Shown: piece by piece, positions 67 through 7,736 of the stretch | Numbering within the stretch: the first letter of the stretch is position 1 | Layout of the letters: the number at the start of each line of letters is the position of its first letter | NCBI RefSeq assembly: GCF_000014225.1 | Contig: NC_008228.1 | Location: 1,798,001 to 1,862,000, forward strand | Direction: 5' to 3' | DNA from: Paraglaciecola sp. T6c | GTDB taxonomy: Bacteria > Pseudomonadota > Gammaproteobacteria > Enterobacterales > Alteromonadaceae | DNA: 64,000 nt | The notes under the pieces: generated by a model | Seen by the model: only the letters and a program-made list of their open reading frames with translations | Database searches by the model: none | Told to the model about the DNA's origin: nothing | Translations under genes and position numbers: made by a program

Positions 67-1014
67 CATCAAAAATCAGTGGTTCATTGAATGGATAAAA
101 AAGAATACATAATTCGCCAACTCGGAAGGACGAAAAACAAAAAATATGAAGCATATGTTGTAACGAGAATAATTCACTTATTGAATGATTTCAGCATTAA
201 GTTTATCACCCAACAATATGTAACGCGCCCCAAAGGTAGAGCGCTAACTGATTTATATTTCCCTCAGTTTGCTTTTCATATTGAAGTTGATGAAGGCCAG
301 CATTTCAACCAAGCTAATATCGAAGCAGATAAAATTCGTGAAGCAGACATTATCAACGCAACTGGTCACGAAATATTGCGGATTGATGTAACAAAGTCAT
401 TTGATGACATAAATACCCAAATAGATGCCGCCGTAAATAAAATAAAAAGTATGAGGCAAGAAATCTCATTTATTCCGTGGGACATAGATTCTGAATTTGA
501 TTCGGCAACATACATAAAGCGCGGTTACATTGACATCAAAGATAACGTGGCATTCAAAACAATAAAAGATGCATGTAACTGTTTTGGTCATAATTACACC
601 GGATATCAACGGGCTGGAGCAGCGCATCCCGACCACTATATCATGCTATGGTTTCCAAAATTATTTCCCAACGGAGAATGGGATAATCAAATTAGCTCTG
701 ACGAAGAAGTAATAACCGAGCGAAACGAAGATGACAAAAAAGCAAAACAACATGTATCAAGTCACGTCAACAACAAAGAAAAGCACAAGCATCAGCGGAT
801 AGTGTTTGCAAAGGTAAGAGGAAACCTCGGGGACGTATTGTATCGTTTCAGAGGGCAGTACCAATTAGATGTAAAAGATAGCAATGAAAAAACTGGCCTG
901 ATTTGGCGACGAATTAAAACCCGAGTGAAAACATATGAACAAAACTAATGCTAACAATCAGCTCAAGTGGGACTGGTTTTCCGCTGCGCTCCAAACCAGC
1001 ACCTTAGCTGGGCG
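63..1014 (+). mobile_element. Single integron gene cassette
   Basis: The 952-bp unit starts just inside the core site GTTAGCA (62-68) and ends at the G of GTTAAAA (1014-1020). It carries one gene and one attC site (949-1020), which is cassette architecture. The R'' box TGCTAAC (949-955) is the exact reverse complement of GTTAGCA at the 5' junction. That is expected because the circular cassette joins its 3' G to its own first bases. No integrase gene and no second attC are visible, so it is a lone cassette here, although an array to the left cannot be excluded. Confidence 0.82.
91..948 (+). CDS. PvuRts1I/AbaSI-like modification-dependent restriction endonuclease (cassette-borne)
   Basis: 285 residues. 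The N-terminal half has a PD-(D/E)XK-type core: an acidic residue in ALTDLYFPQF (about 51-60), then HIEVDEGQH (about 63-71), followed by RIDVTKS. This resembles the Vsr-like nuclease domain of PvuRts1I/AbaSI enzymes, which cut DNA containing hydroxymethyl- or glucosylated cytosine. The C-terminal half contains RIVFAKVRGNLGDVLYRFRG and a WRRIKTRVKTY tail, compatible with the SRA-like base-reading domain of that family. The length also fits. Function is inferred from motif pattern only. It is the only gene of an integron cassette, consistent with a portable anti-phage role against modified-base phages. The preferred base modification cannot be read from the sequence. Confidence 0.62.
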   Translation: MDKKEYIIRQLGRTKNKKYEAYVVTRIIHLLNDFSIKFITQQYVTRPKGRALTDLYFPQFAFHIEVDEGQHFNQANIEADKIREADIINATGHEILRIDVTKSFDDINTQIDAAVNKIKSMRQEISFIPWDIDSEFDSATYIKRGYIDIKDNVAFKTIKDACNCFGHNYTGYQRAGAAHPDHYIMLWFPKLFPNGEWDNQISSDEEVITERNEDDKKAKQHVSSHVNNKEKHKHQRIVFAKVRGNLGDVLYRFRGQYQLDVKDSNEKTGLIWRRIKTRVKTYEQN

Positions 1015-2876: not shown

Positions 2877-5800
2877 ATGGATACTAGAAACGTTACGTAC
2901 AATAAGCGAGGTCCTGATGCTCACATCGAACATGCTTCAGACTCCCTTTCTAACAGAGCTTCAAACAGCATTTTACCTCGCTCTTTACAGCACTATTGGT
3001 TGGTACTGTGCGGCTTACTTATGCTGTGCATGGGGGCGAGTCAAGTTCAGGCCGCAGATTTGGTTAACGGCGGCTCAGTATCTGGTGTTATTTCGGTAGC
3101 GGGTGAGGAAGATACCTGGACGTTCAACGCCACAGCGGGAGAGCGTATTAATATTCAGTTGGTAGATTTAGCCGCTGGTGATTTATTTCCTCAAATGACG
3201 CTCTATGCGCCAGATGGTACACGCGTTACTTCGGCGAGTAATTATACAGTGGCCAGTATTTATAATGCTGAAGCGCCTGAAACAGGTACCTATTCTCTAG
3301 TCGTTCAAGACGGCACCTCACGGCAGGATAATACAGGCGCTTATGCGCTTCATTTTGCTAAGTCTATCGGTGCCAATGAAAACGGCTCGTTGATTAACGG
3401 TAGCTCAGTCAGCGGTGATATCACCTTAGGCGATTTAGACACTTGGACGTTTGACGCCATCGAAGGTGAAAGACTGAATATTCAATTAGTGGACGTGGAT
3501 GAAGCTGGTTTTTTCCCGTTGATGATCCTTTACGCACCAGATGGCAGCCGAGTAGGGTCTGCTAGTAATTACACGGTGGCTAACTTATATAACGTTGCGG
3601 CCACACAGACAGGAACGTACATCTTGCTAGTGCAAGACGGTACGAGTCGACGTGAACAGGTAGGTAGTTATGAAGTGCACTTTGCTAAATCCGTTGGCGC
3701 AAATGAAAACGGCACGCTGAATAATGGCGGTGTAGTGAGCAGTGACATTGCGTTGGGTGATTTAGACACTTGGACATTTGAGGCTACGGCAGGTGAAAGA
3801 CTGAACATTCAAATAGCGGATGTGAACGAAGGCGACTTTTTCCCTTTCATGACGATTTATGGACCAGATGGAACTCGTGTGGGGTCTGCTAGTAATTACA
3901 CTGTGGCAAATTTATACAATGTTGCGGCCACACAGACAGGAACGTACATCTTGCTAGTGCAAGACGGCACAAGTCGACGTGAGCAGGTGGGTAATTATGA
4001 AGTGCACTTTGCTAAGTCCATTGGCGCTAACGAAAACGGCACGTTAAATAATGGCGGCGCGGTGAGCAGTGATATCACGTTAGGGGATTTAGATACCTGG
4101 ACGTTCGAGGCTACAACAGGTGAAAGACTGAACATTCAAATAGCGGATGTAGATGACGCTGGCTTCTTTCCGTTCATGACGCTTTATGCGCCTGATGGCA
4201 CCCGCGTAGGGTCTGCTAGTAATTATACGGTGGCAAATTTATACAATGTTGCGGCCACACAAACAGGAACGTACATCTTGCTAGTGCAAGACGGTACGAG
4301 TCGACGTGATGAGGTAGGTAGTTATGAAGTGCACTTTGCTAAATCCGTTGGCGCTAACGAAAACGGCCCACTGATTAATGGCGGTGCGGTGAGCAGTGAC
4401 ATTACGTTAGGGGATTTAGATACCTGGACGTTCGAGGCCACGGCAGGCGAAAACCTGAATATTCAAATAGCGGATGTGGATAACACTGGCTTCTTTCCGT
4501 TCATGACGCTTTATGCACCAGATGGCACCCGCGTAGGGTCTGCTAGTAATTACACTGTGGCTAACTTATACAACGTTTCGGCCACACAAACAGGAACGTT
4601 TACCTTGCTGGTGCAAGACGGCACAAGTCGTCGTGATCAGGTAGGTAATTATGAAGTGCACTTTGCTAAATCCGTTGGCGCTAACGAAAACGGCCCACTG
4701 ATTAACGGTGGCGTGGTGAGCAGTGACATTACGCTAGGGGATTTAGATACCTGGACATTTGAGGCGGTTGCCGGTGAACGTTTGCATATTCAGCTATCTG
4801 ATATCTTGCGTAATGTGTACTTCCCCTTAATGACGCTTTATGCACCGGACGGTAGTCGAGTCAGTAACGCCAGCAACTATTCTGTCGCTAATTTACGCAA
4901 TATTCTTGCAACACAAACCGGGACGTACATCTTATTAGTGCAGGACGGTACAGGCCGACGTGACCAAACTAGCGATTATGAAATTCACTTTGCTAAGTCT
5001 CTCGGTGCTAATGAACACGGAAAATTAAGCGGCGCTGGTTCTTATTTTGAAACGGTCACGCAAGGTGACATTGATACATTCACCTTTGATGGGGTGGTGG
5101 GTGATGAGGTGACACTAGTTATGCGAGAGCTGGAAGTCACTAATTTATCCCCCTTTATTACCTTGCATAATCCAGATGGGAGTTATTTCACTAACGCGAG
5201 CCATTACTCTGAGGCTGGGGTTTATAATTTAAGCCTACCGATGAATGGAACCTATACCATTGTGCTCAGTGATGGTACTTCAGGCAGAGACCAGATTGGC
5301 GACTACGTTCTTGAATATAACCTGCCAACGGCAGCGCCTGATCCGCAGAAACCGATAGCGTCTGCGTCTTCTGCGCCAACGTTATTTAAAGATCAAGTGA
5401 TTCAACTTAACGGTTCTGGCTCCTTCGACCCCGATGAAGCACCAGAGGCGCTCACGTATAGTTGGACATTGGTATCTGCACCAGATAGCAGCGCTGTAGC
5501 ACAGGCTGATATCGCTGAGCCGAATAGCGCGAATGCCAGCGTACAACCTGATGTATATGGCGAATACCGTTTCGAACTCACTGTCAGTGATGGTTTACTC
5601 AGTGACAGTGCGATTGTTACTGTAACGGTTATCAACCGCGCACCTAGCGCCCATGCCGGTGCAGATCAAAACGTCGAATTAAATGTGCCTACACAGCTCG
5701 ATGGCAGTGCATCAAACGATGCGGACGGTGATTTACTGACTTACGCTTGGACGGTGGTTTCTGTGCCCTCAGGCAGCGCGGTCACTGCACTGCAAAATAG

Positions 5801-7007
5801 CACAAGTGTTAACCCAAGCTTTACACCAGACGTCGCAGGGGATTATGTATTTACCCTTGTGGTTGATGACGGTGAAGACAGTAGCATTGGCGACTCAGTT
5901 GTGGTGCGCGTGGCCCAGGCGAATGTAGCGCCCCAGGCTGATATTCAAGTGAGCGGCGACATGCTAACCGGTACACAAGTCGCTCTAGATGGCAGTGCCA
6001 GTGTTGACAATGACAACGGCCCTCAAGCCCTAACATACGAGTGGCAGGTGATAAGTGCGCCAGCGGGTAGCACTATTAATACGGCAAGTCTTGTTAGCCA
6101 AGGAACAGCCACCACTAGCTTTACAGCTGATGTAGCGGGTACCTATCGTGTACAACTCGCTGTTTTCGATGGTGAGTTAACCGATGTGGTTGAGGCCAGT
6201 ATTGTGATAAACGAGGTGGTGGTCAACCAAGGGCCAGTGGCCGATGCAGGTGCTGACCAGCAACAGGAACTTGGCGACAGCGTTGAGGTTAATGCCTCAG
6301 CAAGCTTTGACCCAGACCAAAGCCCCGCGCCACTGACGTTCGAATGGGTGTTTGTGTCAGTGCCCCAGGGTAGCTTGCTGGTTAGCGCGAGTATTGAAAG
6401 CACGCCTGCGGGGTTAGCGATGTTTGTGCCAGACGTCGCAGGTACTTATACGCTCATGGTCACCGTTAGCGATAGCGAGCTAACCGACTCGGACTCCGTC
6501 ATGGTGACTGTCAGTGAAAATCAAATACCGGTTGCTGATGCCGGGAGTGACCAAACCGTTGATGCAGGCGAGCGCGTAGCGCTCGATGGCTCACTAAGTT
6601 ATGACCCTGACTCAGGCCCTCAAGCGCTCAGCTATTTATGGGAGGTGGCTTCTCGCCCCGAAAATAGCGTAGCTACCGTTATCAATAACAATAATGTGCT
6701 GGCGTTTATCGAGCCTGATTTGGCTGGGTTGTATACATTGCGGCTAGTGGTGAGTGACGGGCAAGCAACGGACGAGGATGAGGTACTCATTGATGTGATC
6801 AACGTGGTGCAACCAAGAATGTGCGATGTCGATGGCAATGATTTTGTGGATAGCCTAGATATTCGTGCTATAGCACGACTTCGCAATGCAACCGCAAGTG
6901 AAGGCGATGTGGCAGATTGGGATCAAAACGGTGTGATTAACGTGCTAGACGCCAGAGGTTGTGCACTTGAGTGTGACCTATCACGTTGCGCCTTAAAACC
7001 CGAGTAA
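2877..7007 (+). CDS. Secreted PPC-repeat / PKD-repeat protein with C-terminal dockerin
   Basis: 1376 residues. ATG at 2877 has a good AAAGGA site. A long basic N-region leads to a hydrophobic signal segment (about 41-58, cleavage near VQA-AD). Residues about 61-825 are seven PPC-like beta-sandwich repeats of about 109 residues (DTWTF...GE...NIQ...LYAPDG...GTY.LLVQDGTSR). Residues about 830-1305 are five PKD-like domains (GS.S.DPD..P..LTY.W ... Y.F.L.VSDG). The last 65 residues hold two calcium-loop repeats (CDVDGNDFVDSLDI and DWDQNGVINVLDA) as in type I dockerins. No catalytic domain is seen, so it is probably a structural adhesin or scaffold exported to the cell surface. The next gene encodes a cohesin-like protein, its likely partner. 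Confidence 0.8.
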   Translation: MDTRNVTYNKRGPDAHIEHASDSLSNRASNSILPRSLQHYWLVLCGLLMLCMGASQVQAADLVNGGSVSGVISVAGEEDTWTFNATAGERINIQLVDLAAGDLFPQMTLYAPDGTRVTSASNYTVASIYNAEAPETGTYSLVVQDGTSRQDNTGAYALHFAKSIGANENGSLINGSSVSGDITLGDLDTWTFDAIEGERLNIQLVDVDEAGFFPLMILYAPDGSRVGSASNYTVANLYNVAATQTGTYILLVQDGTSRREQVGSYEVHFAKSVGANENGTLNNGGVVSSDIALGDLDTWTFEATAGERLNIQIADVNEGDFFPFMTIYGPDGTRVGSASNYTVANLYNVAATQTGTYILLVQDGTSRREQVGNYEVHFAKSIGANENGTLNNGGAVSSDITLGDLDTWTFEATTGERLNIQIADVDDAGFFPFMTLYAPDGTRVGSASNYTVANLYNVAATQTGTYILLVQDGTSRRDEVGSYEVHFAKSVGANENGPLINGGAVSSDITLGDLDTWTFEATAGENLNIQIADVDNTGFFPFMTLYAPDGTRVGSASNYTVANLYNVSATQTGTFTLLVQDGTSRRDQVGNYEVHFAKSVGANENGPLINGGVVSSDITLGDLDTWTFEAVAGERLHIQLSDILRNVYFPLMTLYAPDGSRVSNASNYSVANLRNILATQTGTYILLVQDGTGRRDQTSDYEIHFAKSLGANEHGKLSGAGSYFETVTQGDIDTFTFDGVVGDEVTLVMRELEVTNLSPFITLHNPDGSYFTNASHYSEAGVYNLSLPMNGTYTIVLSDGTSGRDQIGDYVLEYNLPTAAPDPQKPIASASSAPTLFKDQVIQLNGSGSFDPDEAPEALTYSWTLVSAPDSSAVAQADIAEPNSANASVQPDVYGEYRFELTVSDGLLSDSAIVTVTVINRAPSAHAGADQNVELNVPTQLDGSASNDADGDLLTYAWTVVSVPSGSAVTALQNSTSVNPSFTPDVAGDYVFTLVVDDGEDSSIGDSVVVRVAQANVAPQADIQVSGDMLTGTQVALDGSASVDNDNGPQALTYEWQVISAPAGSTINTASLVSQGTATTSFTADVAGTYRVQLAVFDGELTDVVEASIVINEVVVNQGPVADAGADQQQELGDSVEVNASASFDPDQSPAPLTFEWVFVSVPQGSLLVSASIESTPAGLAMFVPDVAGTYTLMVTVSDSELTDSDSVMVTVSENQIPVADAGSDQTVDAGERVALDGSLSYDPDSGPQALSYLWEVASRPENSVATVINNNNVLAFIEPDLAGLYTLRLVVSDGQATDEDEVLIDVINVVQPRMCDVDGNDFVDSLDIRAIARLRNATASEGDVADWDQNGVINVLDARGCALECDLSRCALKPE
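3384..4691 (+). repeat. Near-identical 327-bp tandem repeats inside the surface-protein gene
   Basis: The word GGGTCTGCTAGTAATTA recurs at 3555, 3882, 4209 and 4536, exactly 327 bp apart. Long flanking stretches are identical or differ at only a few bases. The first, sixth and seventh protein repeats are more diverged. This points to recent in-frame duplication or gene conversion, so repeat number may vary between strains. The outer limits given are approximate. Confidence 0.85.
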
Positions 7008-7014
7008 TACCAGC

Positions 7015-7046
7015 GAGATAAGCACAAGGATGTGCTGCTTTATCTC
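7015..7046 (+). terminator. Hairpin after the dockerin protein gene
   Basis: GAGATAAGCACA and TGTGC-TGC-TTTATCTC pair around an AGGA loop with a small bulge. It lies 8 bases after the stop at 7007. There is no clear T-run, so termination may be partial, or the hairpin may protect an upstream mRNA end while the following gene is still read. Confidence 0.4.
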
Positions 7047-7124
7047 ATATGGTCAGCAAACTAACGTTTAGCACATGAGATGTAGAAAATAACTCGAATT
7101 CAATAGGTTAAATAAGGAATATTC

Positions 7125-7736
7125 ATGTTGAAAAATGCAAAAATCACTTTCATGCTCAAACACCTAATCCTCGGGGCGGTTTTGCTATCAGGAGTATGTA
7201 AAACAGCGAATGCTTTGCCCATCTTATCGTTTAACAACACACAAAGTAACGTAAATGAAACGGTTAATATCGGCGATACGATTATTTTCGAACTCTGGTT
7301 TTCAGGATTAGAAAACGTCGATGTAGGCGGGTTTGAATTTTTGCTTGGGTTCAACGATGCTGTCAGCTCCCTTAATTCCGCAGTGGGAAATGCGTCATTA
7401 GATGAGTTTGATATTTTTGATTTAGCAGGAAATTCAAATCACGTCGATGCCTACGCGGTATCATTTACGGCCGATTTATCCACTCAGGCTAATGAGTTTA
7501 TGTTTGCGACGCTATCGTTTATGGCCAGTGGTGCAGGCGTCAGCAATCTTACTTTTAATAATCTCATCGTGTCAGATTTAAACGCGTTGGCTATGGATAT
7601 CAGCGTGTTCGATGCACAAATTACGGTGGTCGATGATACAAACAACATGCCGGTGCCAACCCCGACATCGTGGGGTATATTCCTAATCGGAGTATTAGCC
7701 CTAGCGTGTCGATACAGACGGCATAAACCAAGCTGA
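7125..7736 (+). CDS. Cohesin-like protein with PEP-CTERM-like sorting signal
   Basis: 203 residues; AAGGA precedes the ATG. A signal peptide (about 12-31, ending ANA) is followed by a cohesin-like beta domain (about 34-170: VNIGDTIIFELWFSGLENVD, GGFEFLLGFND). The tail is VPTPTSWGIFLIGVLALACRYRR: a Pro-rich motif, one hydrophobic helix and an Arg cluster. This is the three-part layout of PEP-CTERM signals handled by exosortase, although the motif reads VPTP rather than VPEP. It lies 117 bp behind the dockerin-ended giant protein. I infer that it holds that protein at the surface through cohesin-dockerin binding. No exosortase gene is in the window. Confidence 0.68.
   Translation: MLKNAKITFMLKHLILGAVLLSGVCKTANALPILSFNNTQSNVNETVNIGDTIIFELWFSGLENVDVGGFEFLLGFNDAVSSLNSAVGNASLDEFDIFDLAGNSNHVDAYAVSFTADLSTQANEFMFATLSFMASGAGVSNLTFNNLIVSDLNALAMDISVFDAQITVVDDTNNMPVPTPTSWGIFLIGVLALACRYRRHKPS

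Follow-up and report, generated by a model that had tools for sequence, protein, structure and literature searches.

The surface anchors of cellulosome bacteria include proteins with a single cohesin, such as OlpA of Clostridium thermocellum, which is attached through an SLH anchor, and ScaE of Ruminococcus flavefaciens, which is attached through a sortase anchor. Another C-terminal device is found with nucleases of the ExeM type, which carry a GlyGly-CTERM/rhombosortase tail. Sorting of the PEP-CTERM/exosortase (EpsH/XrtA) type was described by Haft in 2006 (PMC1569441), where the PEP-CTERM proteins are mostly without recognisable domains; that paper, the table of which includes Pseudoalteromonas atlantica T6C, mentions neither cohesin nor dockerin. 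Non-cellulosomal cohesins and dockerins are themselves known, including those of the ANME archaea, whose tabulated genomes reach 80 cohesin and 149 dockerin domains; some such genomes also hold archaeosortases, and the role of cohesin-dockerin pairs outside cellulosomes is called unknown (PMC5244752). Within the open-access literature searched, no description was found of a dockerin-cohesin/PEP-CTERM arrangement, nor any paper that pairs a dockerin with PEP-CTERM or PEP-CTERM with a cohesin domain; a single paper mentions both dockerin and exosortase.

The genes considered here lie in a window of 64,000 nucleotides (the whole stretch of DNA analysed) from Paraglaciecola sp. T6c. A long gene for a dockerin-bearing repeat protein, the cargo, is followed on the same strand, after 117 bases, by a short gene for a cohesin protein with a PEP-CTERM-type tail, the anchor (Table 1). 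The likeness to OlpA and ScaE is that one cohesin on a cell-surface anchor would receive a dockerin protein. Unlike in those systems, the anchor has a tail of PEP-CTERM/exosortase type and the host is Gram-negative, every anchor gene adjoins the gene of its own cargo with no scaffoldin seen, the dockerin has a C-terminal tail with two cysteines, and the cargo goes beyond plant-wall enzymes. The ExeM-type nucleases are similar in that an extracellular nuclease is tethered by a C-terminal device, whereas in the present arrangement it is a dockerin that terminates the nuclease, and the neighbouring cohesin protein bears the sorting tail. With PEP-CTERM/exosortase sorting as described (PMC1569441) the system shares a signal peptide, a PEP-CTERM-type tail and an exosortase within an exopolysaccharide (EPS) locus, but here sorting would act on a cohesin, which in turn would bear another, larger protein. 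The occurrence of cohesin and dockerin outside cellulosomes is shared with the ANME archaea, although cognate gene pairs with a sorting tail are not proposed in that paper (PMC5244752). The best reading of the sequences is a one-cargo, one-anchor form of surface display, with an exosortase in place of a scaffoldin, and the two-gene arrangement, which is found dozens of times in marine bacteria, looks like a way of holding enzymes and adhesins on the surface.

Table 1. Features of the dockerin-cohesin gene pair, in window coordinates.
Feature	Position	Strand	Basis
Dockerin-bearing PPC/PKD repeat protein, 1376 aa (cargo)	2877..7007	+	ORF; Pfam PPC x7, K319L-like_PKD x5, Dockerin_1
Probable signal peptide, about residues 37-60 of the cargo	2985..3056	+	Translation read by eye
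Seven PPC repeats	3057..5366 (limits approximate)	+	Pfam PF04151, 7 stretches, E 4e-34
Five PKD-type repeats	5385..6797 (limits approximate)	+	Pfam PF22352, 5 stretches, E 1.6e-47
C-terminal two-loop dockerin, residues 1315-1374, four-cysteine subfamily	6819..6998	+	HMM matches; cysteine pattern
Cohesin protein with PEP-CTERM-type tail, 203 aa (anchor)	7125..7736	+	ORF; leave-out profile; fold matches to cohesins
Probable signal peptide, residues 1-30 of the anchor	7125..7214	+	Translation read by eye
Cohesin domain, residues 33-168	7221..7628	+	Profile alignment
PEP-CTERM-type sorting tail: VPTP, hydrophobic stretch, basic cluster	7650..7721	+	Sub-threshold Pfam/TIGR matches; layout

The domain at the end of the large protein, the true start of which may lie downstream of position 2877, has the two calcium-loop repeats, the Asp/Asn ligands and the PF00404 match that define a type I dockerin at the level of sequence. 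The Dockerin_1 model (PF00404, cut-off 22.9 bits) scores 24.5 bits with the isolated last 70 residues and 19.4 bits, below the cut-off, with the whole protein, while the domain reaches 23.9 bits, above the cut-off, in the genome search. A PDB sequence search with the single large protein gave only weak dockerin matches; a dockerin profile built without the domain's own subfamily recovers it at E 1e-6, and the preliminary description of a PPC/PKD repeat protein ending in a two-loop dockerin is borne out. Of 125 dockerin sequences, 113-114 have two cysteines close to the C-terminus. Two additional cysteines, the one located ahead of the first loop and the other behind the second, occur together in 30 of the 125 and singly in 2. 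The window dockerin has all four. From this covariation a C-terminal disulfide is predicted for the dockerins, with a second disulfide, predicted for the four-cysteine subfamily, that would join both ends of the domain. This end of the large gene is under purifying selection, with a dN/dS of 0.06-0.10 among orthologues.

The cohesin of the small protein is less easily recognised by standard means, and neither a Pfam scan, which returned no cohesin match, nor a PDB sequence search with the protein alone, which returned no match, identifies it. It is recovered at E 5e-12 by a cohesin profile from which it and its close relatives had been excluded, and a profile built from 37 neighbouring cohesins, 23 of which match Pfam Cohesin individually, finds solved cohesins, the best being 3l8q at E 8e-16. 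The AlphaFold2 model of the protein has a low confidence (pLDDT 53), its alignment having two rows. When that model was used in a Foldseek search the first 29 rows were all cohesin structures, and structural re-alignment gave a top Z of 9.6, to cohesin 2 of CipA; a Z of 7-8 is common for any model in the method used, so weight is placed on the fact that cohesins consistently head the list and not on Z alone. The protein thus combines a cohesin sequence match with a predicted jelly-roll fold, and its gene has a dN/dS of about 0.11-0.12 among orthologues, which indicates purifying selection.

The tail of the small protein falls short of the curated PEP-CTERM cut-offs, scoring 11.5 bits (whole protein) or 15.8 bits (tail alone) against the 20.7 required by PF07589, and 13.2 bits against the 16 required by TIGR02595. 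The PEP-CTERM layout is nevertheless present, with VPTP, a hydrophobic stretch and RYRRH, together with the probable signal peptide read by eye, and the VPTP variant is common to orthologues of the same genus. More broadly, the combination of proline motif, hydrophobic stretch and C-terminal basic cluster is found in 84 of 85 neighbouring cohesins; of the 85, 62 match the Pfam PEP-CTERM model and 64 match TIGR02595 (at E 0.1). The earlier call of a cohesin-like protein with a PEP-CTERM-like tail therefore claimed more for the 203-aa protein than the standard models support, with no Pfam cohesin and only a sub-threshold tail, and is upheld by the leave-out profile, the fold matches and the layout of the tail.

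The source genome is a single contig of 5,187,005 bp. It encodes five such dockerins and four such cohesins, and each cohesin gene comes immediately after a dockerin gene. Their paired cargoes are an endonuclease-I nuclease (read as ExeM-type), a porphyranase-type GH, an IgGFc-binding-like protein and the repeat protein of the window; the fifth dockerin belongs to an S8 protease, encoded by the gene after the nuclease pair. A cellulosome was considered for this genome and rejected because multi-cohesin proteins are absent: the four cohesin matches fall in open frames of 179-206 aa with one cohesin each, leaving no scaffoldin, and in place of many plant-wall enzymes only one of the five dockerins is on a GH, that of the porphyranase type. 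Both the exosortase and the other dockerin proteins for which the preliminary description proposed a search are thus encoded. The exosortase, whose absence would have counted against the preliminary description, is the only one in the genome and is XrtA (1414765-1415514; 293.7 bits against a cut-off of 208), and its gene sits among genes that read as exopolysaccharide biosynthesis. A GspD-type secretin is also encoded. Taken together, the two genes of the window quite probably form a cognate pair, in which a secreted dockerin cargo would be matched with a single-cohesin anchor sorted by XrtA to the surface or EPS layer. With respect to regulation, no sigma-54 site of the kind reported for proteobacterial PEP-CTERM genes was found in the short flanks upstream of the pair loci or near the genome's other PEP-CTERM genes, and in promoter and terminator scans the counts differed from those of shuffles by no more than about 1.5 standard deviations.

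The pairing recurs well beyond this genome. In a set of 118 Alteromonadaceae genomes, in which the surroundings of most dockerin matches were examined, 63 contain a dockerin of this type. The distinct dockerin ORFs number 109. In 79 of them the dockerin is C-terminal and a cohesin gene follows directly on the same strand, a cohesin is upstream at short range in six more, 20 are without a neighbouring cohesin, and a partner on the opposite strand is seen in none. For the N-terminal dockerins the order is inverted, all four having a cohesin gene directly upstream (loci L139, L094 and L106), and most of these preceding cohesins have a sorting-type tail. The dockerin is therefore found, at most loci, at the end of the gene that faces the cohesin gene. 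Whole-genome searches blind to position place 86 of 96 cohesin matches within 1.2 kb of a dockerin match, where chance would give about 0.1%; of the other ten, four are separated from a dockerin by roughly a single gene, and six, which are weaker, lie elsewhere. Presence by genome follows the same pattern, with a dockerin in 53 of the 56 cohesin genomes (odds ratio 92, p 2e-19) and an exosortase in 61 of the 63 dockerin genomes (odds ratio 24, p 6e-8), p-values that assume independent genomes and are weakened by relatedness. One further dockerin-like match, in a TonB-receptor-like ORF of the source genome (L005/L027), has an E of 0.115 and was set aside as chance.

The partners also diverge together. 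Distances among dockerins and among their cohesins are correlated (Mantel r 0.547; 79 pairs, 50 genomes), whereas swapping partners within genomes gives a mean r of 0.221 and a maximum of 0.427, with none of 5000 swaps reaching the observed value, and the effect persists when the comparison is limited to diverged pairs. This shows that the dockerin-cohesin pairs descend as units. Such co-divergence fits cognate binding, and linked inheritance alone could also yield it, in which case the genes would be a cassette whose mature proteins do not bind, the cohesin-like protein being either a PEP-CTERM matrix protein in its own right or a helper that acts transiently in periplasmic sorting. This alternative, which also accommodates the dockerin ORFs without a neighbouring cohesin and the ten genomes without any, is considered unlikely: the two domain types are precisely those known to bind each other, the dockerin faces the cohesin gene whether it is N- or C-terminal, cohesins hardly ever occur away from a dockerin, and the pair is kept while the cargo bodies differ widely.

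The ten genomes just mentioned carry a dockerin, mostly on an ExeM-type nuclease, and lack a cohesin even at loose thresholds; two of them (G018 and G077) are also without an exosortase. Their dockerin loci include L141, L118, L092, L101, L152, L140 and L103. In these genomes the partner may have diverged beyond recognition, the dockerin may have another partner or use, or it may be a remnant. The same ten genomes, and the two without exosortase in particular, would also suit a dockerin that acts mainly as a calcium-stabilised terminal cap or secretion signal, with cohesin docking secondary or lost in many lineages. That explanation is judged quite improbable, given that N-terminal dockerins exist and still adjoin a cohesin, and that 53 of the 63 dockerin genomes carry a cohesin.

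Outside the Alteromonadaceae the same arrangement is sporadic in other Gammaproteobacteria, and in a phylum-wide sample the dockerin is nearly confined to the Alteromonadaceae. A genome scan with a second dockerin alignment found matches only in Bowmanella pacifica and a planctomycete, and two scans of viral contigs gave no matches. At one locus of another gammaproteobacterial family (L159:4828-14993) a cohesin gene lies between a gene with a C-terminal dockerin and a gene with a near-N-terminal dockerin, such that both dockerins face the cohesin. Elsewhere, a short protein with two tandem dockerin-like modules adjoins a cohesin gene (L086:3902-5092, minus strand).

Variations of this kind bear on whether several dockerin enzymes might be gathered on shared cohesins, in the manner of a cellulosome-like multi-enzyme scaffold. 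At two loci (L023:10392-14816 and L121:3453-7880) a gene for an S8 protease with a dockerin follows a nuclease-dockerin/cohesin pair and has no cohesin of its own downstream, so that two cargoes may share one anchor; the cohesin gene between two dockerin genes at L159 can be read in the same way. Against this, the neighbouring cohesin genes encode single-cohesin proteins of about 150-245 aa with no multi-cohesin protein among them, the source genome has only its five dockerins and four cohesins, and the paired co-divergence points to dedicated partners. A shared scaffold therefore appears very unlikely.

The cargoes of the pairs are mostly enzymes, as judged from clusters of the dockerin proteins in which domain scans were run on representatives only. 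The largest cluster has 45 proteins, with an endonuclease I domain in the member checked, and a cluster of 11 yielded two M9 collagenases from the two members checked. Nine proteins resemble the window repeat protein, eight are of unknown type, and there are seven members each in a porphyranase-like group and in a group with M43 metalloprotease and PKD domains. Smaller groups and single proteins include S8, GH98, lambda-carrageenase, M4 protease, glucuronyl esterase and VWA domains. The preliminary statement that neither protein has an enzyme domain holds for the window pair and fails for related pairs, most of which carry enzymes. Likewise, its two-part surface or matrix assembly stays a prediction, one that genomics strongly supports through pair recurrence, exosortase co-occurrence, co-divergence and XrtA, whereas its restriction to a non-enzymatic assembly was too narrow for a device that mostly carries nucleases, proteases and polysaccharidases. 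A prediction of the dockerin, linker and cohesin as one chain, a fusion made by reading through the intergenic stops, gave a pLDDT of 40 from a three-row alignment.

On the one-cargo, one-anchor reading, both proteins would be exported through Sec. According to the PEP-CTERM/exosortase model, the tail would then hold the cohesin protein in the inner membrane until XrtA cleaves it and it is passed to the envelope or EPS. The cargo would cross the outer membrane, perhaps by type II secretion in view of the GspD present, and its calcium-loaded dockerin would dock on the cohesin encoded next door. Once docked, the PPC/PKD rod could be displayed as an adhesin or matrix component, and at the sister loci the same device would hold nucleases, collagenases, other proteases and enzymes acting on algal polysaccharides. 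It seems fairly likely, as a joint reading of these gene pairs, that they represent a widespread and apparently undescribed form of Gram-negative surface display, in which each dockerin cargo is held by its own exosortase-sorted single cohesin from the adjacent gene; the system would then amount to a split sorted protein, the anchor of which is a separate small protein.

If this is true, a recurrent set of PEP-CTERM proteins gains a definite task, and cohesin-dockerin pairs that are not part of cellulosomes gain a function. The arrangement also suggests how marine bacteria that degrade agar, carrageenan or collagen could retain large enzymes at their surface. The two-gene unit offers a testable system for the study of exosortase action, and the naturally paired, diverged cohesin-dockerin modules constitute a set for engineering. 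Upstream of the pair, near the start of the window, lies a gene for a PvuRts1I-like modification-dependent restriction endonuclease with an SRA domain (91-948, plus strand).
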